DNA from: Acidimicrobiaceae bacterium
GTDB lineage: Bacteria > Actinomycetota > Acidimicrobiia > Acidimicrobiales > RAAP-2
Reading direction: 5' to 3'
Assembly (NCBI GenBank): GCA_003158855.1
Contig: PMLJ01000016.1
Location: 1 to 47,083, forward strand
DNA: 47,083 nt
The first letter of the stretch is position 1. Every line of letters starts with the position of its first letter. Both the position numbers and the translations under genes were made by a program. The notes beneath the pieces were generated by a model, which made no database searches, was not told where the DNA came from, and saw only the letters and a program-made list of their open reading frames with translations. Positions 3,172-39,987 of this stretch are shown here, one piece after another.

Positions 3172-3780
3172 ATGACGCGCTGGATTCTGGTCGACTACGG
3201 CGAGGTGATCTCGGTGCCCCAGTCAACCGAGACCATCGTGGAACTGGCGAGCCTCGCCGGCCAAGAGCCAGACGAGTTTCGCGAACGGTACTGGAGATTC
3301 CGCCTGCCCTATGATCTCGGCCAGTCAGATGATGCTTACTGGTCAGAGGTCCTTGACCGCGACCTCTCCACTGAGACTGATCTTGTGGAGGAAATGGTTC
3401 GAGTGGATGTCGCTGGGTGGATGACACTCAATCCGCAGACGCTTCCCACGCTCCTCGAGTTCGCGAATGAAGCGGATGCCCGGCTCGCGTTGCTCTCGAA
3501 CGCCCCCGAGTCGCTCGCGATCGCGATCGACGCGAGCGGGTGGTCGAGCAACTTTGTTCGCCGCTTCTTCAGTTGTCGCCTGGAACTCGCCAAACCCAAC
3601 ATTGAGGTGTTCGAAGCGGTACTCGGAGAACTTGGCGCGGCGCCGCAGTCCGTGCTGTTCATCGACGATCGAACCGAGAACACGCAGGCGGCCGCGACGC
3701 TCGGGATACAAACCGCACGGTTCACGTCGGTCGAGGAACTGGCGCATCTGCTCGACGATTGGGAATCAGAGATGCGCTGA
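3172..3780 (+). CDS. HAD-superfamily hydrolase (YihX-like subgroup)
   Basis: 202 residues. HAD motifs in order: motif I VDYGEV near residue 8 (nucleophile Asp present), motif II LLSNAPES, motif III Lys in LELAKPNIEVFE, and motif IV VLFIDDRTEN. The second motif-I acid of the usual DxD is Gly here (D-Y-G). YihX-type phosphatases and epoxide-hydrolase-like relatives also deviate at this place, so catalysis may differ from a classical phosphatase. A helical cap (about residues 15-85) fits subclass IA. The start ATG has a GGGAG ribosome site seven bases upstream. Small sugar phosphates are typical substrates in the family; the actual substrate is unknown. Confidence 0.8.
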   Translation: MTRWILVDYGEVISVPQSTETIVELASLAGQEPDEFRERYWRFRLPYDLGQSDDAYWSEVLDRDLSTETDLVEEMVRVDVAGWMTLNPQTLPTLLEFANEADARLALLSNAPESLAIAIDASGWSSNFVRRFFSCRLELAKPNIEVFEAVLGELGAAPQSVLFIDDRTENTQAAATLGIQTARFTSVEELAHLLDDWESEMR

Positions 3781-3906
3781 AGCAGGGGACAAGCGCTTCT
3801 CCGTGGCCTGTCGACAGCAACACATCGGGCGAAGGGCCACCCCAGGCCAGCGTGGGACCCTCTTCAATCTTCGTCTGGTTGCAACCTGACGCGGTGCAAT
3901 TCGCGA

Positions 3907-4104
3907 CTACTTGTGGCTCTTCGCCGCGCTCTTGATCTTCTTGCCGGCGTCCTTCACGTTCTCCTTGGCAGCCCTTAGGTCCGCCTTGACTTCGTCGGAC
4001 ACACCTTTAGCCTCCAGCGCGCGCCCAACAGCCTTGCCGGCGACCTGCTCAGCCTTGCCCTTCAGCTTCAGCGCTTCGTTGCTGGCCTTCTCTTTCGCTC
4101 CCAT
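3907..4104 (-). CDS. CsbD-like stress-response protein
   Basis: A 65-residue Lys/Ala-rich, highly charged protein without hydrophobic segments. It carries the CsbD pattern: an N-terminal stretch with ALKLKGKAEQVAGKAVG, then alternating EVKADLRAAKENVKDAGKKIK. CsbD proteins are small, probably disordered proteins induced by general stress in many bacteria; their molecular function is unknown. The start ATG at 4104 is preceded on its strand by GAAGGAGACGGGAC, a good ribosome site. It appears monocistronic. Confidence 0.85.
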   Translation of the reverse strand: MGAKEKASNEALKLKGKAEQVAGKAVGRALEAKGVSDEVKADLRAAKENVKDAGKKIKSAAKSHK

Positions 4105-4631
4105 GTCCCGTCTCCTTCTTCTGGAATCTGGATTGCTTGTCGATCACGTTGCCGGTCACCGTTCGAAAGGGTCGCCAGCGCAACGCAAACGCCACTACGA
4201 TTCGGACGTTACGGTGTTCCTCGGACTCTCAACAGTGCCGAAAGTCCCTTTCCCCACCTATCAATTCGCAGAGGGGGATGATGCGATCCAGATGCGGGCG
4301 AGATCTTTCACGATGGGACACGTCAGCCAGATTCGCAATGTTCGCGAGCAGCCCCATTCGGTCGCGAAGCGCGATGGGGGATCGAGGGCGTTTGCGATGT
4401 TCTCACGGTGGTTCGCGAAACAACGGTGAGACGGCGTCGCCGGCGTCTCTGATGTTCGTCGACGGAACCAGGCGCGAGAGCGCGAAGATCACGCTGAAGA
4501 GGCCGGAGATCTCGCTCGCGGCACCTAGGGCCCCATGGAATTGCGCCGTTTGGTTGAGGAGAAGAAGGGACGGCGTCGCAGGTCGAGTGATCGCAAATCG
4601 ACGAGCCAGAGCTACCGGGGGCTCGTGACCT
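4105..4631. other. 527-bp gap upstream of cobQ; possibly decayed coding DNA
   Basis: No intact gene. On the minus strand around 4430-4555 a short frame reads like part of a hydrophobic protein (LGAASEISGLFSVIFALSRL), but stops interrupt the frame toward 4270 and I recognise no family. I looked for a cobalamin riboswitch ahead of cobQ and saw no B12-box-like segment. Promoters for the divergent CsbD-like and cobQ genes presumably lie here. Confidence 0.35.
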
Positions 4632-6080
4632 TTGGAAGAGTCACAGAAGTTAACATCGGTGCCTGTGTCCGGGCCACCTCGTCAGTTTCGACCTCTCATG
4701 ATCGTGGGCTGCACGTCTTCGGCTGGCAAGAGTCTGGTGGTCACCGGGCTTTGCCGTTGGTTCGAGCGTCAAGGTGTGGACGTGGCGCCGTTCAAAGCGC
4801 AGAATATGTCCAACAATGCTCGAGTAGTGCACGGCGGTGAAATCGGACTCGCGCAGTGGCTGCAGTCACTCGCTGCGAGAAAGGAACCGACGACGGAGAT
4901 GAACCCGGTTCTCTTGAAGCCGGAGGCCGATACTCGCAGTCAGGTTGTCGTCAACGGTCAAGTGCGGCACGATCTGACGGCGATGGCGTGGCAGGATCGC
5001 GGCGATTCCCTGTGGGCGCCGATGCATGAGGCATTTGATTCATTGGTGCAGAAGCATGAGCTGATCGTGATCGAAGGCGCCGGCAGTCCCGCGGAGATCA
5101 ATCTTCAAGACCTTGTCAATAACCGAATGATGGAGCATGCGGACGCGTCAGCGCTCCTGGTTGCGGATATTGACAGGGGCGGTGCTTTCGCCCATCTGTA
5201 TGGAACCTGGTCGCTGGTCCCCGAGTCAACACGTTCTCGAATGGGTGCGTACGTGTTGAACAAGTTCCGAGGTGACGCCGCGCTGCTCGAACCAGGTCCT
5301 TCCATGTTGCAAGAAATGACTGGCATGCAACTTGCGGGCGTGCTGCCAATGCTTCACCACAGCCTCCCGGATGAAGAGGGGGCGACCCTAAGAGCGACTC
5401 CGTACCGAGGCAACACCGTGGTGGGGATAGTTCGTTATCCGTTCTCGTCAAACCTTGACGAGTTCCACTTGCTCCCGTACGCGACGAAAGTGCGCTGGGT
5501 AACGGAAGCCTCGGATGTGGATGGCTGTGATCTCATCATTCTTCCTGGTTCAAAGCACGTTGCCGCCGACATGGCGTGGATGCGTTCTCGGGGGCTCGAC
5601 GACGCTCTCTCGAGCAGAGCCGCCGATGGGGGGCGCATCATTGGTGTTTGCGGCGGTTGCATGATGTTGGGGGAAGAAGTGCTTGACGAAGAAGGAGTTG
5701 AGGGCGCGACGTCTGGACTGGGGCTACTGCCCATCAAGACCATCATTGATCCGGTGAAGATCACCAGGTGCGATGAGATTCGGATTCCGATACTCCCCGG
5801 CGGTTTCAGTGGGTTGAGCGGAATTGCCACCTCAGGCTACGAAATCCGAAATGGCCGAGTTATCGACGGTGGGTGCAGACTAGGTCCACGCTTCTGGGGT
5901 TTGGATTCGATCGTCGCCACCACTGTCCACGGATTGTTTGAAGACCCGACAGTTCTGGAGGCACTCTTCGGGACTCGGCCGGATCTCGTCCTTGAAAGGA
6001 CATTCGATGAACTGGCTGACACAATTGAAGAGAATCTTGACACCGAACTCTTGTGGGAGATGGTGAGCAAGAAGATCTAG
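4632..6080 (+). CDS. cobQ: Cobyric acid synthase (adenosylcobyric acid a,c,d... amidase CobQ/CbiP)
   Basis: This enzyme uses glutamine and ATP to amidate carboxyl side chains b, d, e and g of adenosylcobyrinic acid a,c-diamide in cobalamin synthesis. Seen: a dethiobiotin-synthetase-like ATPase half with P-loop GCTSSAGKS, then FKAQNMSNNARVV and EGAGSPAEINL; and a class I glutamine amidotransferase half with nucleophile Cys340 in GVCGGCMMLGEE and His433 in TTVHGLFEDP. The usual length is about 480-500 residues; 482 here. The start is uncertain: TTG 4632 has GGGGGC upstream, with in-frame GTG 4659, GTG 4665 and ATG 4698 as alternatives, the last giving the family's usual short N-terminus. No other cobalamin gene is in the window, so it may serve salvage or act with genes elsewhere. 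Confidence 0.92.
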   Translation: MEESQKLTSVPVSGPPRQFRPLMIVGCTSSAGKSLVVTGLCRWFERQGVDVAPFKAQNMSNNARVVHGGEIGLAQWLQSLAARKEPTTEMNPVLLKPEADTRSQVVVNGQVRHDLTAMAWQDRGDSLWAPMHEAFDSLVQKHELIVIEGAGSPAEINLQDLVNNRMMEHADASALLVADIDRGGAFAHLYGTWSLVPESTRSRMGAYVLNKFRGDAALLEPGPSMLQEMTGMQLAGVLPMLHHSLPDEEGATLRATPYRGNTVVGIVRYPFSSNLDEFHLLPYATKVRWVTEASDVDGCDLIILPGSKHVAADMAWMRSRGLDDALSSRAADGGRIIGVCGGCMMLGEEVLDEEGVEGATSGLGLLPIKTIIDPVKITRCDEIRIPILPGGFSGLSGIATSGYEIRNGRVIDGGCRLGPRFWGLDSIVATTVHGLFEDPTVLEALFGTRPDLVLERTFDELADTIEENLDTELLWEMVSKKI

Positions 6081-33285: not shown

Positions 33286-34143
33286 ATGAACGTGGTGCGC
33301 CCGGGCGGGCCACTCCGCCTGACGATGGGGGAGAGGAACTTTGACGTCACGACGCGCGCTCTCGTGATGGGCATCCTCAACCGGACCAAGGACTCCTTCT
33401 ACGAACCCGCGGCGACGTTCGATCTTGACGCGTTGTTCACCCGCGCCGACCAGTTGGTGCGTGACGGGGCGGACCTCTTGGACGTGGGTGGGGTGAAGGC
33501 CGGACCCGGCGACGAGGTCACCGAAGTCGAGGAGCTCGAGCGCGTGGTGCCGGTTGTCGCGCAGCTGAAGAAGCGCTTCGACGTGCCCATCAGCATCGAC
33601 ACGTGGCGGGCCTCGGTGGCGAAGGCCTGCTTCGAGGAGGGTGCCTGCGTGGGAAACGACATCAGCGGCTTCGCCGACCCGGACTATCTCTGCGTCGCCG
33701 CCGACGCGAAGGCGACCGTTGTCGCCACGCATATTCGACTCCGCCCGCGCGTGGCGGACCCGAACCCGCACTACGACGACGTCACTTCGACCGTGTGTCG
33801 GTTTCTGCTCGAGCGTCGCCAGTGGGCGCTCGACGCCGGAGTCACGAGCGACCGGATCATCGTCGACGCCGGGCTCGACCTGGGAAAGACCGCCGGGCAG
33901 TCGCTGCAGCTCCTGCGCGATTCGTCGAGTCTCGCCGGACTCGGCTCGCCGCTGCTGCTCTCGGCGTCGAACAAGACCTTTCTCGGCGTCATGTTCAATC
34001 TGGCGGTGAACGAACGCCGCGAGGCCTCGCTCGCAGCGACCGCGCTCGGGATTGCGGGCGGGTGCCGTATCGTTCGTGTCCATGACGTGGCGGGAACAGT
34101 TCGGGTGCGCGACGCACTGGCCCGGATCCTGGAGGCGGCCTAG
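33286..34143 (+). CDS. Dihydropteroate synthase paralogue, FolP2-like
   Basis: 285 residues, TIM-barrel of the pterin-binding family. Motifs: VMGILNRTKDSFYEPA, DGADLLDVGGVKAGPGDEV, PISIDTWRA, NDISG, LSASNKTFLG and CRIVRVHDVAGT. True DHPS has N-V-T-x-D-S-F-S-D-G-G and E-S-T/S-R-P; here the first is NRTKDSFYEP and the second GGVKAGPG. The same changes mark mycobacterial FolP2, reported not to make dihydropteroate. So a related pterin-binding role is likelier than folate synthesis. Its TAG overlaps the holA GTG by one base. Confidence 0.88.
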   Translation: MNVVRPGGPLRLTMGERNFDVTTRALVMGILNRTKDSFYEPAATFDLDALFTRADQLVRDGADLLDVGGVKAGPGDEVTEVEELERVVPVVAQLKKRFDVPISIDTWRASVAKACFEEGACVGNDISGFADPDYLCVAADAKATVVATHIRLRPRVADPNPHYDDVTSTVCRFLLERRQWALDAGVTSDRIIVDAGLDLGKTAGQSLQLLRDSSSLAGLGSPLLLSASNKTFLGVMFNLAVNERREASLAATALGIAGGCRIVRVHDVAGTVRVRDALARILEAA

Positions 34144-35156
34144 TGTCTAGTTCCTTCGCCGTGGTGGGTACCGACGCCACGATGGTCTACGACGCGCTGC
34201 ACAACGTCGTCGCGAACGCCCTCGGGGACCTCGATCCCTCATTCGCGCTGCAGGACTTCACCGCGAAGGACGTCACGTCGTCGGGGGCCGTGTCGGTCGC
34301 GTCCCAGGTGATGGAGGCCCTCAACACCCCGCCCTTTCTCGTAGAACGCAGGGTGGTAGTCGTGCGAGACGCCCAGTCGCTCGTCGCCGAGGAGGTCGCG
34401 CAGATCCTGCAGTGGATGAACGACCCCGCCCCGGACACGGTGCTGGTGATCGGCGTCGTTGGAACGAAGGCCAACAAGCTCGTGAAGGCCGCCGGCGAAG
34501 TCGTCGAAGTCAATGTCGGGACCCGGTCCCAGGACCGCGTCGCGTTCGTCGAGGCGAAGTTGGCCGAGTACCGAGTCACGATCGATCGCACGACCGCGCA
34601 GCGGATCGCTGACAAGGTGGGCGACGACATCGCCCGCGTTGATTCACTGGCCCGGTCGCTCCAGTCGATCTACGGATCCGCGCCGCTCAACTTCACCCAC
34701 GTGGAGCCCTATCTGGGCGACGCCGGCGACGTGCCCGAATGGGACCTGACCGACGCTATCGACAACGGCGACGCCACCAAGGCGATCGTGGTGGCGCGAA
34801 GGATGCTCGACTCGAAGGGACGCGCCGGCCTCCAGATCGTCAACATGCTGCAGCGCCACTACTTGCGGATGGCCCGACTCGAGGGAAGCGGCGTGCGAGG
34901 TGACGACGAAGCCGCGGCGCTGCTCGGGATCAACCGGTATCCCGCCGGCAAGGCCCTTCGCGTGTCCCAGCGCATCGGGCCCGAGCGCATCACCGCGGCG
35001 GTGCACATGATCGCTAACGCCGACGTCGACCTGAAGGGCGGCGTGAGTTACGGCGGCAGGGACCTCAATACCGACCTCGACGTCACCGAACTGACCGTCA
35101 TTGAGGTGCTGGTCGCCCGGCTCGCGAAGATGACCCAGGGTGCGAGGCGCCGCTAG
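34143..35156 (+). CDS. holA: DNA polymerase III delta subunit
   Basis: 337 residues, clamp-loader delta subunit that opens the beta clamp. Seen: the HolA-type order of an N-terminal RecA-like domain with PFLVERRVVVVRDAQSL, a middle segment DIARVDSLARSLQSIYG, VPEWDLTDAIDNGDATKAIVVARRML, and a C-terminal collar domain with HYLRMARLEG and DVDLKGG. No Walker A, as expected for delta. GTG start shared with the folP2-like stop. In many genomes holA faces rpsT directly; here four kilobases with the lipid cassette lie between them. Confidence 0.9.
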   Translation: MSSSFAVVGTDATMVYDALHNVVANALGDLDPSFALQDFTAKDVTSSGAVSVASQVMEALNTPPFLVERRVVVVRDAQSLVAEEVAQILQWMNDPAPDTVLVIGVVGTKANKLVKAAGEVVEVNVGTRSQDRVAFVEAKLAEYRVTIDRTTAQRIADKVGDDIARVDSLARSLQSIYGSAPLNFTHVEPYLGDAGDVPEWDLTDAIDNGDATKAIVVARRMLDSKGRAGLQIVNMLQRHYLRMARLEGSGVRGDDEAAALLGINRYPAGKALRVSQRIGPERITAAVHMIANADVDLKGGVSYGGRDLNTDLDVTELTVIEVLVARLAKMTQGARRR

Positions 35157-35330: not shown

Positions 35331-35645
35331 ATGATCGGAATCGACCTGGTGAGCATCGGCGAGTTCCGCCGGGGGCTGGAGATCGGCGGCGCCAATCTTG
35401 CAAGGAGGGCCTTCGCTGAAGCAGCGGTGCCGCACCGGGAAGTGGAGCAGTTGGCGCGCACGTGGGCGGCGAAGGAGGCGGTCCACAAGCCCTCCGACGC
35501 GCCCACCCATCCGCTGAGCGGCGTCATGACTAGCCCGGACGCCCCGGGACTTCTGCTCGCCAGCTTGGATGAGCAACGTCTTGCGGTCTCGCTCTCGCGC
35601 ACGGCCGAGTACGTCGTCGCCCCGGTGATGCGGTTAGAGAAATGA
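35331..35645 (+). CDS. Holo-ACP synthase-like phosphopantetheinyl transferase
   Basis: 104 residues. AcpS signature: N-terminal MIGIDLVSIGEFRRGLE (metal-binding Asp4) and RTWAAKEAVHK (Glu/Lys of the CoA site), and C-terminal AVSLSRTAEYVVAPVM. Usual AcpS is about 120-130 residues, so this is short, with a compressed middle. It overlaps the next gene by ATGA; that gene encodes a protein with an internal carrier domain, the obvious target for this transferase. Whether it is the only AcpS of the cell cannot be seen here. Confidence 0.8.
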   Translation: MIGIDLVSIGEFRRGLEIGGANLARRAFAEAAVPHREVEQLARTWAAKEAVHKPSDAPTHPLSGVMTSPDAPGLLLASLDEQRLAVSLSRTAEYVVAPVMRLEK

Positions 35646-38107
35646 GCCAGCGCACCTTCAGCGACTACGTCGCTGACTTGGACCAGTTCGCCGGGAATCT
35701 GGCCCTGACCAGCAGGTCCTTCCTGAAGATCGAGAGGGTCACCCACCACGAACTGCGCCTGCGCTCGTACCAGACGGCTCACTACCTGAGCGCGTCAGGC
35801 GTGCAGCGCGGCGACCGGGTCATGGTCGTCGCGACCAATTCGCCCGAATGGGTGGAGCTGCTCCTCGGGACCCTGCTGATCGGCGCGGTGCTCGTCCCCG
35901 TTGACGCGAGCAGCTCGGCTGAGGTGACGATGCGCTTCGCCCGAGAGACGTCCCCGAAGATCGTGTTCGCGGGCAGAAACCTCCATCTGGACGGCGCGGA
36001 CTTCGCCACGCATTTCCTGGACGAGCTCGGGGCGCTCGTCGCCGGATCCCCGCGCACCGATCCCGCGTTCCCCCTGGAGCAGGAGTGGCCGGCCGTCATC
36101 GTGTTCACCTCGGGAACCACGGCTGACCCCAAGGGCGTGGTGCTCACCCATGAGAACATCCTCGCCAACGTCGCGGGCATTCTCGCGAGAATCGACGTCG
36201 GACCGGACTGGCGCCTTCTGTCGGTGCTGCCGCTTTCGCACATGTACGAGATGTCCGGCAGCCTTTCGGTCCTGGCGCGTGGCGCCAGCATCTTCTACAT
36301 GCCTCGAGTCACCCCCCGGGCAATCGTGCAGAGTCTGGGGGACTACCAGATCAACGTGATGCTCGCCATCCCGCAGCTTCTCTCGCTCATGCTCGAGCGG
36401 ATCCAACAGACCGTCCAAGAACGAGGGCAAGCCAAGCTGTTCCAGGCAGCGTTGAGGATCGCGGGCCATCTGCCGTTCGCGCTGCGAAGGGTCCTCTTCC
36501 ACAGCGTCCTGTCACAGCTGGGCGGACACCTGCGCATCGTGGTCACCGGCGGCGCGCCCATTCCCATCGACGTCGCGACGACGTGGGAGCGCATGGGCGT
36601 TCTCATGGTGCAGGGCTACGGCCTCACCGAAACGTCGCCGATCCTCAGCGGCAACGGCCTGAACGACCGACGGCTCGACTCGGCGGGCAGGGCGCTCGAC
36701 AATGTGCAGTTGCGCATAGGCGAAGACGGCGAGATCCAGGCGAAGGGCCCCAGCGTCTTTCACGGGTACTGGCACGACGAATCAGCCACCCGCGCCGCGT
36801 TCAGCGAGGACGGCTGGTTCCGCACGGGCGACGTCGGCCGGCTCGAGGATGGCTGGCTGTTCATTCAAGGTCGGCTCAAGTTCGTCGTCGTGCGCAGCAG
36901 CGGCCTGAAGGTCTTTCCCGAGGACGTCGAAGTGGTCGCCGAGAAGGAGCCCCTCATACGCGAAATCTGTATCGTCGGGCTCAGGGACCAAAAGGGGGAG
37001 TCGGTCCTGGCGGTGCTGGTCGCCGACGGGTCGGATCAGGTCGTCAATGACGCCATCGCGCGCATCAACGCCCGGCTCGAGCCCTTTCAGCACATCGATG
37101 ACTGGCGGCGCTGGCCGGAGGGCGATTTCCCTCGCACGCGTCTGCTCAAGGTCGACCGGCGCCAGGTCGAGGAGTGGGCCAACACCGGCGGAGCCGTGGC
37201 GCCGGCGAAGCCAGGTCACTTCGAAGCCGGCGAGGACCCCTTGGTCCACGTCATTCGCCTGAGCCTGGACGATCCGGGCGCGGTGATCAACGACTCGGAC
37301 CGTCTGGCCGACCTCGGTCTCGATTCACTGCGACGGCTCACCGCCATCTCCATGCTCGAGGAGCAGCTGGGAATCTCCATCTCCGATGACGTCATCGCCC
37401 CCGAGACCACCGTCGAGGAACTGCGTCGACTGGCGGGTGAGGGGAGTCCCGCGGAAACTGCGCTCCGCGCTCCGCGCTGGCCCTACTGGCGATGGGTGAG
37501 GTTCGTCGGAAACGGCCTTCGCGAAACGGTGCTGCGAGGTATTGTCCGAATCTGGGTCAGGGTGAGTGTCGAGGGCGTCGAGGGGCTGGCGGACTTCAAG
37601 GGCCCCGCGCTGTTCATCTTCAACCACAGCGATGACTTCGACGGACCGGTCGTCTACCACGCCCTGCCCCGCAAGATCCGGACGCGCCTCGCCGTAGCGA
37701 CCGCCGACGACGTGCTTCGCGACCACAAGTTGCTGGCGCTGCTGGCGCGGGTCTGCTTCGCGGGCTTCAGCTTCGCGCGCAGCGAGCCGTACCTGCCCAG
37801 CCTCGAATACGTGGGTGAGATGGTGGACCGGGGCTGGAACGTGCTGATCTCTCCCGAGGGCCGATTGAGCACCACCGGGCGGCTGCAGCCCTTCAAGTCG
37901 GGCATCGGACTGCTCGCCGTCAGCCTCGGCGTGCCCGTCATCCCCATCAAGACCATCGGCCTCGCCGGCACCGTGCCGCTGCACGCGAAGTGGCCGAAAC
38001 GGCGTAGTCGCGTGACCGTACGGATCGGCCAGCCGATGTGCTTCGGTCCCCGGATGAACTACGACGACGTGACCGAAGCGTTGTATCGAGCCGTAGAAGA
38101 CCTCTAG
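35642..38107 (+). CDS. Acyl-AMP ligase - ACP - PlsC acyltransferase fusion (Aas-like)
   Basis: 821 residues in three parts. Residues 1-520: ANL adenylating domain with IVFTSGTTADPKGVVLTHEN, YGLTETSPIL, GWFRTGDVGRLEDGWL and GRLKFVVVRSSGLKVFPED. Residues about 530-600: acyl-carrier domain, LADLGLDSLRRL, phosphopantetheine Ser562. Residues about 640-821: PlsC-type acyltransferase with NHSDDFDG (His662, H-x4-D) and SPEGRLSTTGRLQPFKSG. It could activate a free fatty acid, load it on its own carrier and pass it to a lysophospholipid or glycerolipid acceptor. E. coli Aas has the same two catalytic domains in reverse order and borrows ACP. Coupled to AcpS upstream and followed by an MFS gene. Confidence 0.9.
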   Translation: MSQRTFSDYVADLDQFAGNLALTSRSFLKIERVTHHELRLRSYQTAHYLSASGVQRGDRVMVVATNSPEWVELLLGTLLIGAVLVPVDASSSAEVTMRFARETSPKIVFAGRNLHLDGADFATHFLDELGALVAGSPRTDPAFPLEQEWPAVIVFTSGTTADPKGVVLTHENILANVAGILARIDVGPDWRLLSVLPLSHMYEMSGSLSVLARGASIFYMPRVTPRAIVQSLGDYQINVMLAIPQLLSLMLERIQQTVQERGQAKLFQAALRIAGHLPFALRRVLFHSVLSQLGGHLRIVVTGGAPIPIDVATTWERMGVLMVQGYGLTETSPILSGNGLNDRRLDSAGRALDNVQLRIGEDGEIQAKGPSVFHGYWHDESATRAAFSEDGWFRTGDVGRLEDGWLFIQGRLKFVVVRSSGLKVFPEDVEVVAEKEPLIREICIVGLRDQKGESVLAVLVADGSDQVVNDAIARINARLEPFQHIDDWRRWPEGDFPRTRLLKVDRRQVEEWANTGGAVAPAKPGHFEAGEDPLVHVIRLSLDDPGAVINDSDRLADLGLDSLRRLTAISMLEEQLGISISDDVIAPETTVEELRRLAGEGSPAETALRAPRWPYWRWVRFVGNGLRETVLRGIVRIWVRVSVEGVEGLADFKGPALFIFNHSDDFDGPVVYHALPRKIRTRLAVATADDVLRDHKLLALLARVCFAGFSFARSEPYLPSLEYVGEMVDRGWNVLISPEGRLSTTGRLQPFKSGIGLLAVSLGVPVIPIKTIGLAGTVPLHAKWPKRRSRVTVRIGQPMCFGPRMNYDDVTEALYRAVEDL

Positions 38108-38177
38108 GCCATGCGCCGCGCTCAACGAACGAGGACGCGACAACATCGGACGATGCGGGTTCGAGGCCGGCGCAACC

Positions 38178-39425
38178 GTGCCTGATCGCGTCGCTTCGGG
38201 CCCGCTTTCGCGAATGAGCGATCGGGTCACGGTGATTCTGTTCCTCGCGGCCCTCGCGGCGGGGTTCGCCGAGTTCGGCGCCACGACGGCGTTGAACGAC
38301 GTGGCGAGCCACTTCGGTCACCTCTCCCAGAGTGGTTCGCTGCGCAGTGCGGTCGGGCTCTCGGGCTCGGCGTTGGGACTCGGGCTCGCGGCGCTGCGTG
38401 TCGCCTCGCTCGGGGCCTTGCCCCTTTCGTCGCTCGCGGACCGGTGGGGTCGCACGAGGGTCCTGCGCCGGACGCTCGTGCTGGGACTGCTCATCACTGC
38501 AGCGGCGTCGTTGAGCCCCGGGTACTGGGTGTTCGTGCTCTGCTTCGCCCTGGCGCGCCCGCTGCTGACGGTCGCGACGACCTTGGTGCAGATCATCACC
38601 GTGGAACTGGCGAGCACGACGCTTCGGATCCAGCGCCTGGCGATCATGGCCGCGGGGGTCGGGATCGGCTCCGGCGTCTCGGCGGTGCTGCACGGGCTCG
38701 TACGCGGGTCCGATTCGTTTCGCTGGCTGTTCGCGCTGGCCGTCGTGCCGGTGCTGCTGATCGTGCCGTTGCTCAAGGCCGTTCCCGAGCCGGTCCAGCG
38801 GACCGACGCGCTCGCGCTGGCCCGGCTGGGCGCGGTGCCGGCGGACTCTCGCGGTCGACTCGGAATCGTCGCCACGGTGGCCTTCACCATCGGGGTGATC
38901 ACCGGGCCCTCGGGCGGATTCACGTTCGTCTACAGCGAGGGCATATTGAAGATGAAGCCGTCAATCGTGGCGACGGTGGTGGTCGCGAGCGGGCTCGCGG
39001 GCTTGGCGGGACTGTTCGCCAGCCGCCGCCTGGCGCGCACCATGGGCCGGCGATGGACCGTGGCGTTCGGCGTGGTGTCGACGGCGGTGGTGTCGACGTA
39101 CGCCTACAGCGGCGGACGCGTTGGTTTCGTGATCGGCTACGTGCTGAGCGTCGGAGCCGGGGGTCTGTTGTCGCCGGCGATGACCGCGATCAGCACCGAG
39201 ATCTTCGCGCACAACTTTCGCGCCACGAGCGCCGGCTGGATCACGGTCGCCGGTGTCGTCGGAGCGGTCTGCGGCCTCGGCCTGTTCGGCTGGGTGGGCG
39301 ACGTCGTGCACACGTCAAGCCAGACCGGACTGCGCCTCCCGGCGATGGTCACCTTCTTGCCCCTGCTGCCAACGCTGCTGCTCTTGACGCGTCTGCCCGA
39401 GAGCCGGGGGATGGAGTTGTCCTAG
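38178..39425 (+). CDS. MFS transporter (candidate lysophospholipid or lipid carrier)
   Basis: 415 residues from GTG 38178, with ATG 38214 as alternative. About 12 hydrophobic segments in two halves; the MFS loop 2-3 motif appears as LPLSSLADRWGRTRVLRR. Other segments include ALGLGLAALRVASLGA, VAFTIGVITGPSGGFTF and the last TFLPLLPTLLLLTRLP. It lies 70 bp after the acyltransferase fusion on the same strand and is followed by a strong terminator, so the three genes form a cassette. E. coli pairs Aas with the MFS flippase LplT; a similar role here is inferred, not shown by sequence identity. Confidence 0.82.
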   Translation: MPDRVASGPLSRMSDRVTVILFLAALAAGFAEFGATTALNDVASHFGHLSQSGSLRSAVGLSGSALGLGLAALRVASLGALPLSSLADRWGRTRVLRRTLVLGLLITAAASLSPGYWVFVLCFALARPLLTVATTLVQIITVELASTTLRIQRLAIMAAGVGIGSGVSAVLHGLVRGSDSFRWLFALAVVPVLLIVPLLKAVPEPVQRTDALALARLGAVPADSRGRLGIVATVAFTIGVITGPSGGFTFVYSEGILKMKPSIVATVVVASGLAGLAGLFASRRLARTMGRRWTVAFGVVSTAVVSTYAYSGGRVGFVIGYVLSVGAGGLLSPAMTAISTEIFAHNFRATSAGWITVAGVVGAVCGLGLFGWVGDVVHTSSQTGLRLPAMVTFLPLLPTLLLLTRLPESRGMELS

Positions 39426-39426
39426 G

Positions 39427-39449
39427 CCCGTGCGCTGGCACGGGTTTCG
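39427..39449 (+). terminator. Intrinsic terminator of the lipid cassette
   Basis: CCCGTGC - GCTG - GCACGGG (39427-39444) is a perfect 7-bp G+C-rich stem with a 4-base loop, followed by TTTCG. It begins two bases after the MFS stop. Confidence 0.8.
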
Positions 39450-39605: not shown

Positions 39606-39869
39606 CTAGGCGTCGTTGCGAAGTGAAGCGATCCGCTTCATCAGGCCGCTCTTCTTGTTGGCGGCCTGGTTCTTGTGGATGACGCCCTTGGAGGCGGCCA
39701 TGTCGATGCGCTTGACGGCGGCGCGCAGGGCGGTCTCTTCGTTCTCGGTGCCGACCGAAGAGATGGCGGTCTTGGTGCGGGTACGCAGCTCGGACTTGAC
39801 GGCCTTGTTGCGGTCGCGGTCGACGATGTTCTGCTTGTTGCGCTTAATCTGGCTCTTGATATTTGCCAC
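39606..39869 (-). CDS. rpsT: 30S ribosomal protein S20
   Basis: 87 residues from GTG 39869 (VANIKSQIKRNKQN), with CGAGG seven bases upstream; frames further upstream are not part of S20. A basic helical protein binding 16S rRNA in early 30S assembly. Conserved C-terminal VIHKNQAANKKSGLMKRIASL. Divergent from lepA with 118 bp between starts, a very common arrangement. The usual holA neighbour is displaced by the lipid cassette. Confidence 0.95.
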   Translation of the reverse strand: MANIKSQIKRNKQNIVDRDRNKAVKSELRTRTKTAISSVGTENEETALRAAVKRIDMAASKGVIHKNQAANKKSGLMKRIASLRNDA

Positions 39870-39987
39870 GAAAACCTCGTTATCAGTACGCCGAAACTGT
39901 CCGGCGGGCTGCATAAGGCTAGCAGGAGTACCCGGGCCCTCTCTACTTCGGCTGGGGCGCTGCGCGGACGGGTAGCCTTTCTACACC

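Follow-up and report, generated by a model that had tools for sequence, protein, structure and literature searches.

A ligase-carrier-acyltransferase cassette of Acidimicrobiia as a candidate fatty-acid incorporation module

The window, a stretch of 47,083 nucleotides from an Acidimicrobiaceae bacterium (contig PMLJ01000016.1, positions 1 to 47,083), carries between holA and rpsT a cassette of three co-directional open reading frames (ORFs). These encode an AcpS-like mini phosphopantetheinyl transferase (PPTase), a tri-domain protein combining acyl ligase, acyl carrier and PlsC acyltransferase, and a transporter of the major facilitator superfamily (MFS). We consider it rather likely that the cassette is a fatty-acid incorporation module of the Aas/ElbD kind. 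The ligase domain would activate a free fatty acid as acyl-AMP, the acyl group would be loaded onto the protein's own phosphopantetheinylated carrier (at Ser562), and the PlsC domain would pass it to a lysophospholipid or lysophosphatidic acid. A neighbouring membrane protein, the MFS in the window and an MprF-type flippase-like protein elsewhere, may transport the lipid substrate through the membrane. The carrier would originally have been armed by a translationally coupled mini-AcpS, an enzyme whose presence would let the module move into cells that lack a carrier system, one Saccharibacterium being an example. In the lineage of the window the mini-AcpS seems to be decaying and the chromosomal AcpS probably took over. 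We infer each of these catalytic steps and their substrates, as well as transport and its direction; what can be read directly from the sequences is the domains, the invariant catalytic residues, a conserved gene overlap, a signal of decay and downstream partners that differ between lineages.

The tri-domain protein (821 aa; 35642..38107, + strand) was recognized as an ORF and by its Pfam matches. An AMP-binding (acyl-AMP ligase) domain occupies residues 29-377 (35726..36772; 2.8e-67), followed by the AMP-binding C-terminal domain at residues 429-500 (36926..37141), a weak match slightly below the Pfam cut-off. The carrier domain (PP-binding, residues 542-594; 37265..37423; 2.2e-8) lies between the ligase and a PlsC domain (Pfam Acyltransferase, residues 641-769; 37562..37948), as the initial annotation had proposed. 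Its phosphopantetheine site, Ser562 in the motif GLDSL (codon 37325..37327), was invariant in 19/19 close and 41/41 wider homologues, and H662 and D667 of the H-x4-D motif and P738-E739-G740 of the PlsC domain were likewise invariant in all 41. The structure model of the whole protein had a pLDDT of 80.6. The other two genes were also present as annotated, the AcpS-like ORF at 35331-35645 and the MFS gene at 38178 (or 38214) to 39425.

Relation to known systems and membrane partners

Like Aas-LplT of Escherichia coli, the cassette has a fatty-acid ligase and an acyltransferase in one protein beside an MFS gene. In a search of 17 proteins, the two halves of the window protein showed 30% identity to Aas over 286 residues (E 1e-25) and 29% over 147 (E 5e-9). 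Aas is described as having PlsC first (1-203) and the synthetase after it and as using separate holo-ACP, and the same account treats it as established that LplT does the flipping and Aas the acylation (PMC11416262). In contrast, the window protein has the ligase first, PlsC last and a built-in carrier. The reversed order and the added carrier had both been pointed out from the sequence and were borne out. The likeness to Aas-LplT is thus true of the two enzymatic halves, but the MFS does not match LplT: no LplT was found among its NCBIfam matches at E ≤ 1, and BLASTP against LplT of E. coli likewise gave nothing at E ≤ 1.

A closer precedent in domain order is ElbD of Myxococcus xanthus, which the initial annotation did not mention. 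As published, ElbD has a ligase, a carrier and an AGPAT-like acyltransferase in one chain, with an N-terminal reductase (FAR) domain, and is encoded in the elb operon (PMC9131029). The window protein, compared here with that published description, has the ElbD order minus the FAR domain; its AMP-binding match starts at residue 29. Its gene lies beside an overlapping AcpS-like gene and an MFS gene, whereas the elb neighbours (NAD epimerase, HAD) are missing. The cassette could nevertheless specify an ElbD-type ether-lipid enzyme, which would reduce the loaded acyl chain and channel it into alkyl ether lipids rather than into re-acylation of lysolipids. The shared order favours this, as do reports that ElbD-like homologues elsewhere are almost all without FAR (PMC9131029) and that elbD homologues occur in Acidobacteriota, Poribacteria, Actinobacteria and other phyla (PMC9426513, PMC11868695). 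However, no FAR domain was found in the window protein or in five distant homologues scanned, and the neighbours in the window are DHPS, holA, the MFS gene, rpsT and lepA (lepA by inspection), with no NAD-epimerase or HAD gene. We regard an ether-lipid role as quite unlikely.

The ligase-carrier-acyltransferase architecture is not special to the genus of the window, as judged from homologues in Acidobacteria. Within the genus the protein was found in 20/99 genomes (E ≤ 1e-60), one of which (G007) holds a 214-residue piece; it was found in 22/172 genomes and 3/21 genera of the family (E ≤ 1e-70) and in 8/395 genomes of a class sample (E ≤ 1e-75). A scan of named genomes confirmed 278 matches, of which the best 80 (79 loci) were analysed. 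The Acidimicrobiia type accounts for 28 loci (52-93% identity); the other 51 (29-33%; L133-L183) are acidobacterial or similar, one of them (L163) being labelled Pseudomonadota. The proteins of the latter group are near full-length homologues (29-34% identity), and the three acidobacterial ones scanned have the same four Pfam domains. At least 18 of the 28 Acidimicrobiia-type loci are on the same contigs as the genus set, so that the partner counts from the two sets overlap. Many relatives of the window bear isolate names from peat or permafrost (bog, palsa), and the window organism is a soil bacterium. Two labels or gene models were set aside: L112 (CAJCJA010000040.1), named as Saccharibacteria, has the gene content of the Acidimicrobiia congener G068 and a composition unlike that of the Saccharibacterium genome described below (G552), and is probably mislabelled; the 1121-aa ORF of L195 has no Pfam domain before residue 284 and was taken to have a wrong start.

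The genes next to the ligase gene were compared in both sets. Among 19 congeneric cassettes with a long ligase match, the MFS gene followed the ligase gene in 15. One cassette (G099) is cut by a contig end, leaving 18 assessable for the upstream gene; an AcpS-like gene was upstream in 12 of these and absent in six (G036, G062, G068, G087, G089 and G073), and all three genes occurred together in 8/18. In the scan of named genomes L125 is cut; of the 27 Acidimicrobiia-type loci left to assess, 19 had mini-AcpS upstream, and every one of these 19 pairs overlapped, by four bases in 17 and by one base in two. The overlapping AcpS/ligase pair is thus conserved in Acidimicrobiia. The MFS gene followed in 14/28 loci, and in five (L114, L116, L122, L124 and L128) its place was taken by a gene of the LPG_synthase_TM type, the flippase domain of MprF. 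Four of these match Pfam LPG_synthase_TM and L114 also an NCBIfam flippase-like model, while L122 was recognized only by a custom hidden Markov model; unlike MprF, these proteins have no synthetase domain, and no such gene occurs in the window. The remaining nine loci have a different downstream gene or a contig end (within the ligase gene in L131, about 1 kb after it in L119); only 1.2-1.3 kb of flank lies beyond the ligase gene in L120 and L121. That two unrelated membrane proteins follow the ligase gene lends indirect support to a transport partner.

The MFS (38178..39425, + strand) possibly starts at ATG 38214, near which the alignments of several relatives begin. It is a recruited paralogue, judging from its relatives, and not LplT. 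The expectation that it would be the LplT counterpart is at odds with the searches above and with its presence in only 15/19 congeneric cassettes. It was likewise rejected as an obligate part of the cassette, since MFS homologues occur in 59/61 genus genomes and have unrelated neighbours at the seven non-cassette loci read. All 15 cassette MFS proteins form one clade (support 100/99), with one non-cassette row (G071) inside, which fits a single capture followed by co-inheritance. The G071 gene (G071:C9:104549-105772; L084) is in a genome without the ligase gene and is perhaps a remnant of a lost cassette. In G017:C5 and G036:C16 the cassette MFS is split in two frames (L034 9040-10250, L040 9034-10193), through either pseudogene formation or sequencing error.

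An MFS of this kind might instead point to a biosynthetic unit for a special acylated product, exported by the MFS, with a PlsC acceptor other than a phospholipid. In favour of such a unit, the window MFS has weak likeness to aromatic-acid and multidrug families, far below their cut-offs, and the paralogues closest to it within the genus sit beside unrelated genes. Yet no further tailoring genes lie beside the cassette, the downstream partner in other lineages is an MprF-type flippase-like protein, and the distant homologue L196 follows a gene with a diacylglycerol-kinase domain; an exported special product is improbable. In L196 the tri-domain gene (3236-5128; 38% identity) lies directly after this gene, which also has a weak thymidylate-kinase-like domain.

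Form and apparent decay of the mini-AcpS

The AcpS-like ORF of the window (104 aa; 35331..35645, + strand) overlaps the ligase gene by four bases (ATGA). The two genes may be translationally coupled, as had been predicted. Its identification as AcpS was sound as to the ORF, the overlap and the presence of a Pfam match, but that match barely passes (25.2 bits for a cut-off of 25; 24.3 bits in the genome search) and covers only the N-terminal half. The AcpS-like genes of eight congeners match nearly the whole Pfam ACPS model at 43-55 bits. In an intact relative (L106) the match is full-length (47.7 bits), and the model of this protein (pLDDT 93.1) has AcpS enzymes as its best structural matches (5xuk, TM 0.86), a confident AcpS fold for L106. 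Canonical AcpS shares this fold and the metal-binding Asp/Glu motifs. Mini-AcpS differs in being 103-107 aa long, whereas the canonical enzymes encoded in these genomes reach 129 aa, and in adjoining one fused carrier. The difference in length is due mainly to a gap of 11 residues, together with two smaller ones and a shortened tail. Asp5 and Glu49 were kept in 20/20 mini-AcpS sequences and the His of the S-x-S-H motif in 17/20, with Arg in the window, L127 and L105; these Asp, Glu and His residues we take to be the catalytic or metal-binding positions.

Comparison with the nearest relative, G029 (the same as L127), gave a ratio of nonsynonymous to synonymous rates (dN/dS) of 0.94 for the AcpS gene (37 nonsynonymous and 13 synonymous changes; bootstrap 0.53-1.90). 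For the same pair the ratio was 0.26 for DHPS, 0.24 for the ligase gene, 0.11 for the MFS gene, 0.07 for holA and 0.03 for lepA. Elsewhere AcpS had ratios of 0.12-0.16 (pairs G028-G090, G028-G015 and G008-G012), and two more distant pairs gave 0.07 and 0.16, although their dS exceeds 1.5. In Fisher tests on rounded counts, the window AcpS differed from the ligase gene (P = 2e-4), from the pair G028-G090 (P = 0.006) and from the three other pairs pooled (P = 1e-5). With G017 as outgroup, 15 resolvable AcpS changes fell on the window branch and two on that of G029, with 15 unresolved. At 44 columns conserved in 17 other homologues, the window departs at 16, G029 at nine and G017 at eight, and the S-x-S-H His is Arg in all three. 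In five sister genomes with the cassette in the same position AcpS is lacking, and holA is separated from the ligase gene by only about 85-116 bp.

From these comparisons, mini-AcpS looks to be decaying and in the course of being lost in the window lineage. This call leans mostly on one gene pair, and pairs with G017 gave lower ratios, 0.46 for the window and 0.34 for G029, indicating that constraint on AcpS has not vanished over the longer time scale. A still-working AcpS adapting fast to a changed carrier would also raise the ratio; the frame is open, the overlap and catalytic Asp5 and Glu49 are retained, dN/dS in the N-terminal half is 0.66, and sister G029 retains a match to the Pfam model over 2-111 (44.2 bits). 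Rapid adaptation is nonetheless unlikely, with 16/44 conserved columns and the S-x-S-H His lost, a ratio of 1.32 in the C-terminal half, absence of the gene at the same site in the five sisters, and conservation of the carrier serine.

The carrier of the window is probably armed by the chromosomal canonical AcpS (G000:C12:65524-65808), because the six congeners without mini-AcpS keep Ser562. In three of these (G036, G068 and G073) the only PPTase match is of canonical type, yet the serine is retained. The view that the cassette brings its own activating enzyme is therefore unsupported in the window genome, where AcpS is nearly unconstrained and from whose assessable congeners it is missing in 6/18. 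The description 'self-contained' fails here but suits the 19/27 assessable Acidimicrobiia-type loci with an overlapping mini-AcpS. A third PPTase type, distinct in alignment from canonical AcpS and mini-AcpS, was seen in several congeners (G009:C99, G028:C58, G015:C57, G062:C44 and others; L088, L090, L093, L098).

The cassette in a Saccharibacterium genome

L116 (PLTT01000015.1, 4681-8475), from Candidatus Saccharibacteria bog_1338, combines a mini-AcpS that looks intact with the ligase-carrier-PlsC gene and a gene for a flippase-like protein. Its genome (G552) has 867,802 bases, 42.7% GC and 43 tRNA lines in ARAGORN output; an Rfam search of seven pieces gave tRNAs only. The 16S gene has exact matches to three TM7 probe targets and to two of four general 16S motifs. 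Genome-wide, ACPS (E ≤ 0.001) and PP-binding (E ≤ 0.01) each had a single match, in both cases within the cassette; in the window genome (G000) and in every one of seven others examined, a separate and stronger AcpS match was present beside at least two carriers. Queries with E. coli FabH, FabD, AcpP, FabF, FabZ, AccA, PlsX and CdsA gave no match at E ≤ 1e-3, in a query set without FabI, FabA/B, AccB-D, PlsY and PlsB. The FabG query found one ORF, probably a general reductase, and IspU was found; Aas matched only the cassette protein at E ≤ 1e-3. The G552 cassette is thus, by gene content, a candidate fatty-acid and lysolipid scavenging module.

LepA of G552 is 52% identical to that of the window and the ligase protein 56%, yet in comparisons within the genus LepA is far better conserved than the ligase protein; this suggests horizontal transfer of the cassette between Acidimicrobiia and the Saccharibacterium. 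A chimeric contig was rejected, as the composition of L116 fits the rest of G552 (r 0.95 for the whole contig and 0.80 for the cassette region, compared with 0.71-0.94 for control pieces and -0.04 to 0.37 for seven other cassette loci). In L116 the gene that follows the flippase-like one seemed to contain an acyltransferase motif, but it had no Pfam match and was left unassigned. Gene transfer into Patescibacteria as such is not new, that of acpP and a lysophospholipase gene having been reported (PMC12455944).

It is possible, and we propose it tentatively, that mini-AcpS, ligase-carrier-PlsC and flippase form a portable, self-arming lipid-scavenging cassette. It may have arisen in Acidimicrobiia, the presumed donor, and been acquired horizontally by a Saccharibacterium that has neither a fatty-acid synthase nor any carrier or PPTase besides those of the cassette; this cell would then be fully equipped to use host fatty acids and lysolipids. 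Where the cassette sits in a cell that already has an AcpS, as in the window, the arming enzyme would be redundant and could decay. The kind of tri-domain protein is already known; new are the mini-AcpS coupled to it, a membrane partner that can be exchanged, and the occurrence in a Saccharibacterium without detected fatty-acid synthase. The open-licence literature searched yielded no paper on this cassette, none on a fused ACP-PlsC-AMP-binding protein and none on AcpS H110. The cassette may help to explain membrane upkeep in a tiny, probably host-dependent Saccharibacterium seemingly unable to make fatty acids, and a scavenging module of this kind bears on a question open for Patescibacteria. 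With ligase, carrier, arming enzyme, acyltransferase and flippase-like protein in one module, it is a concrete, cloneable candidate, and it offers a natural test of a PPTase whose sole visible substrate is the adjoining fused carrier.

Several observations weigh against incorporation and scavenging as the role of the cassette. Isolated ElbD is reported to have had ligase and carrier activity in vitro but no acyltransferase activity (PMC9131029), and the window MFS is not LplT-like. Neither an MFS nor a flippase-like gene lies beside the ligase gene in 7/28 Acidimicrobiia-type loci with at least 1.1 kb of flank read. Mini-AcpS, this MFS and the flippase-like gene were all absent from the fetched flanks, some of them short, of the 51/51 acidobacterial-group loci, and the three partners were also missing from L195 and L196 (38-39% identity, other families of the class). 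As to the Saccharibacterium, G552 is a single metagenome-assembled genome, so completeness and binning remain risks. The control queries recovered DnaE, Frr and RluC but missed RnhB and RpmF (2/5), RpmF (57 aa) being below the 60-aa ORF limit.

The holA-rpsT site

The cassette separates holA (34143..35156, + strand) from rpsT (39606..39914, - strand), as first noted. The two genes are on one contig in 88 congeneric cases, always convergent, and the gap between their model matches is ≤ 365 bp in 71. In eight the gap holds the cassette (3.9-4.7 kb) and in nine other inserts (0.85-4.8 kb). The eight cassettes at this site form one clade in the protein tree (100/99), which fits a single insertion followed by vertical descent.

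A terminator had been placed after the MFS gene. An inverted repeat (CCCGTGC/GCACGGG; 39427..39444, + strand) is present, but no terminator was scored there and terminator matches across the region were at chance level (two found, 3.4 expected).

Inserts other than the cassette were seen at holA-rpsT in genomes including G113, G031 (L184, L185), G020, G003, G111 and G078, making this a recurrent insertion site. By inspection only, L184 and L185 hold glycosyltransferase- and glycosidase-like ORFs, and methyltransferase-like and HAD-like ORFs were also seen among the inserts read.

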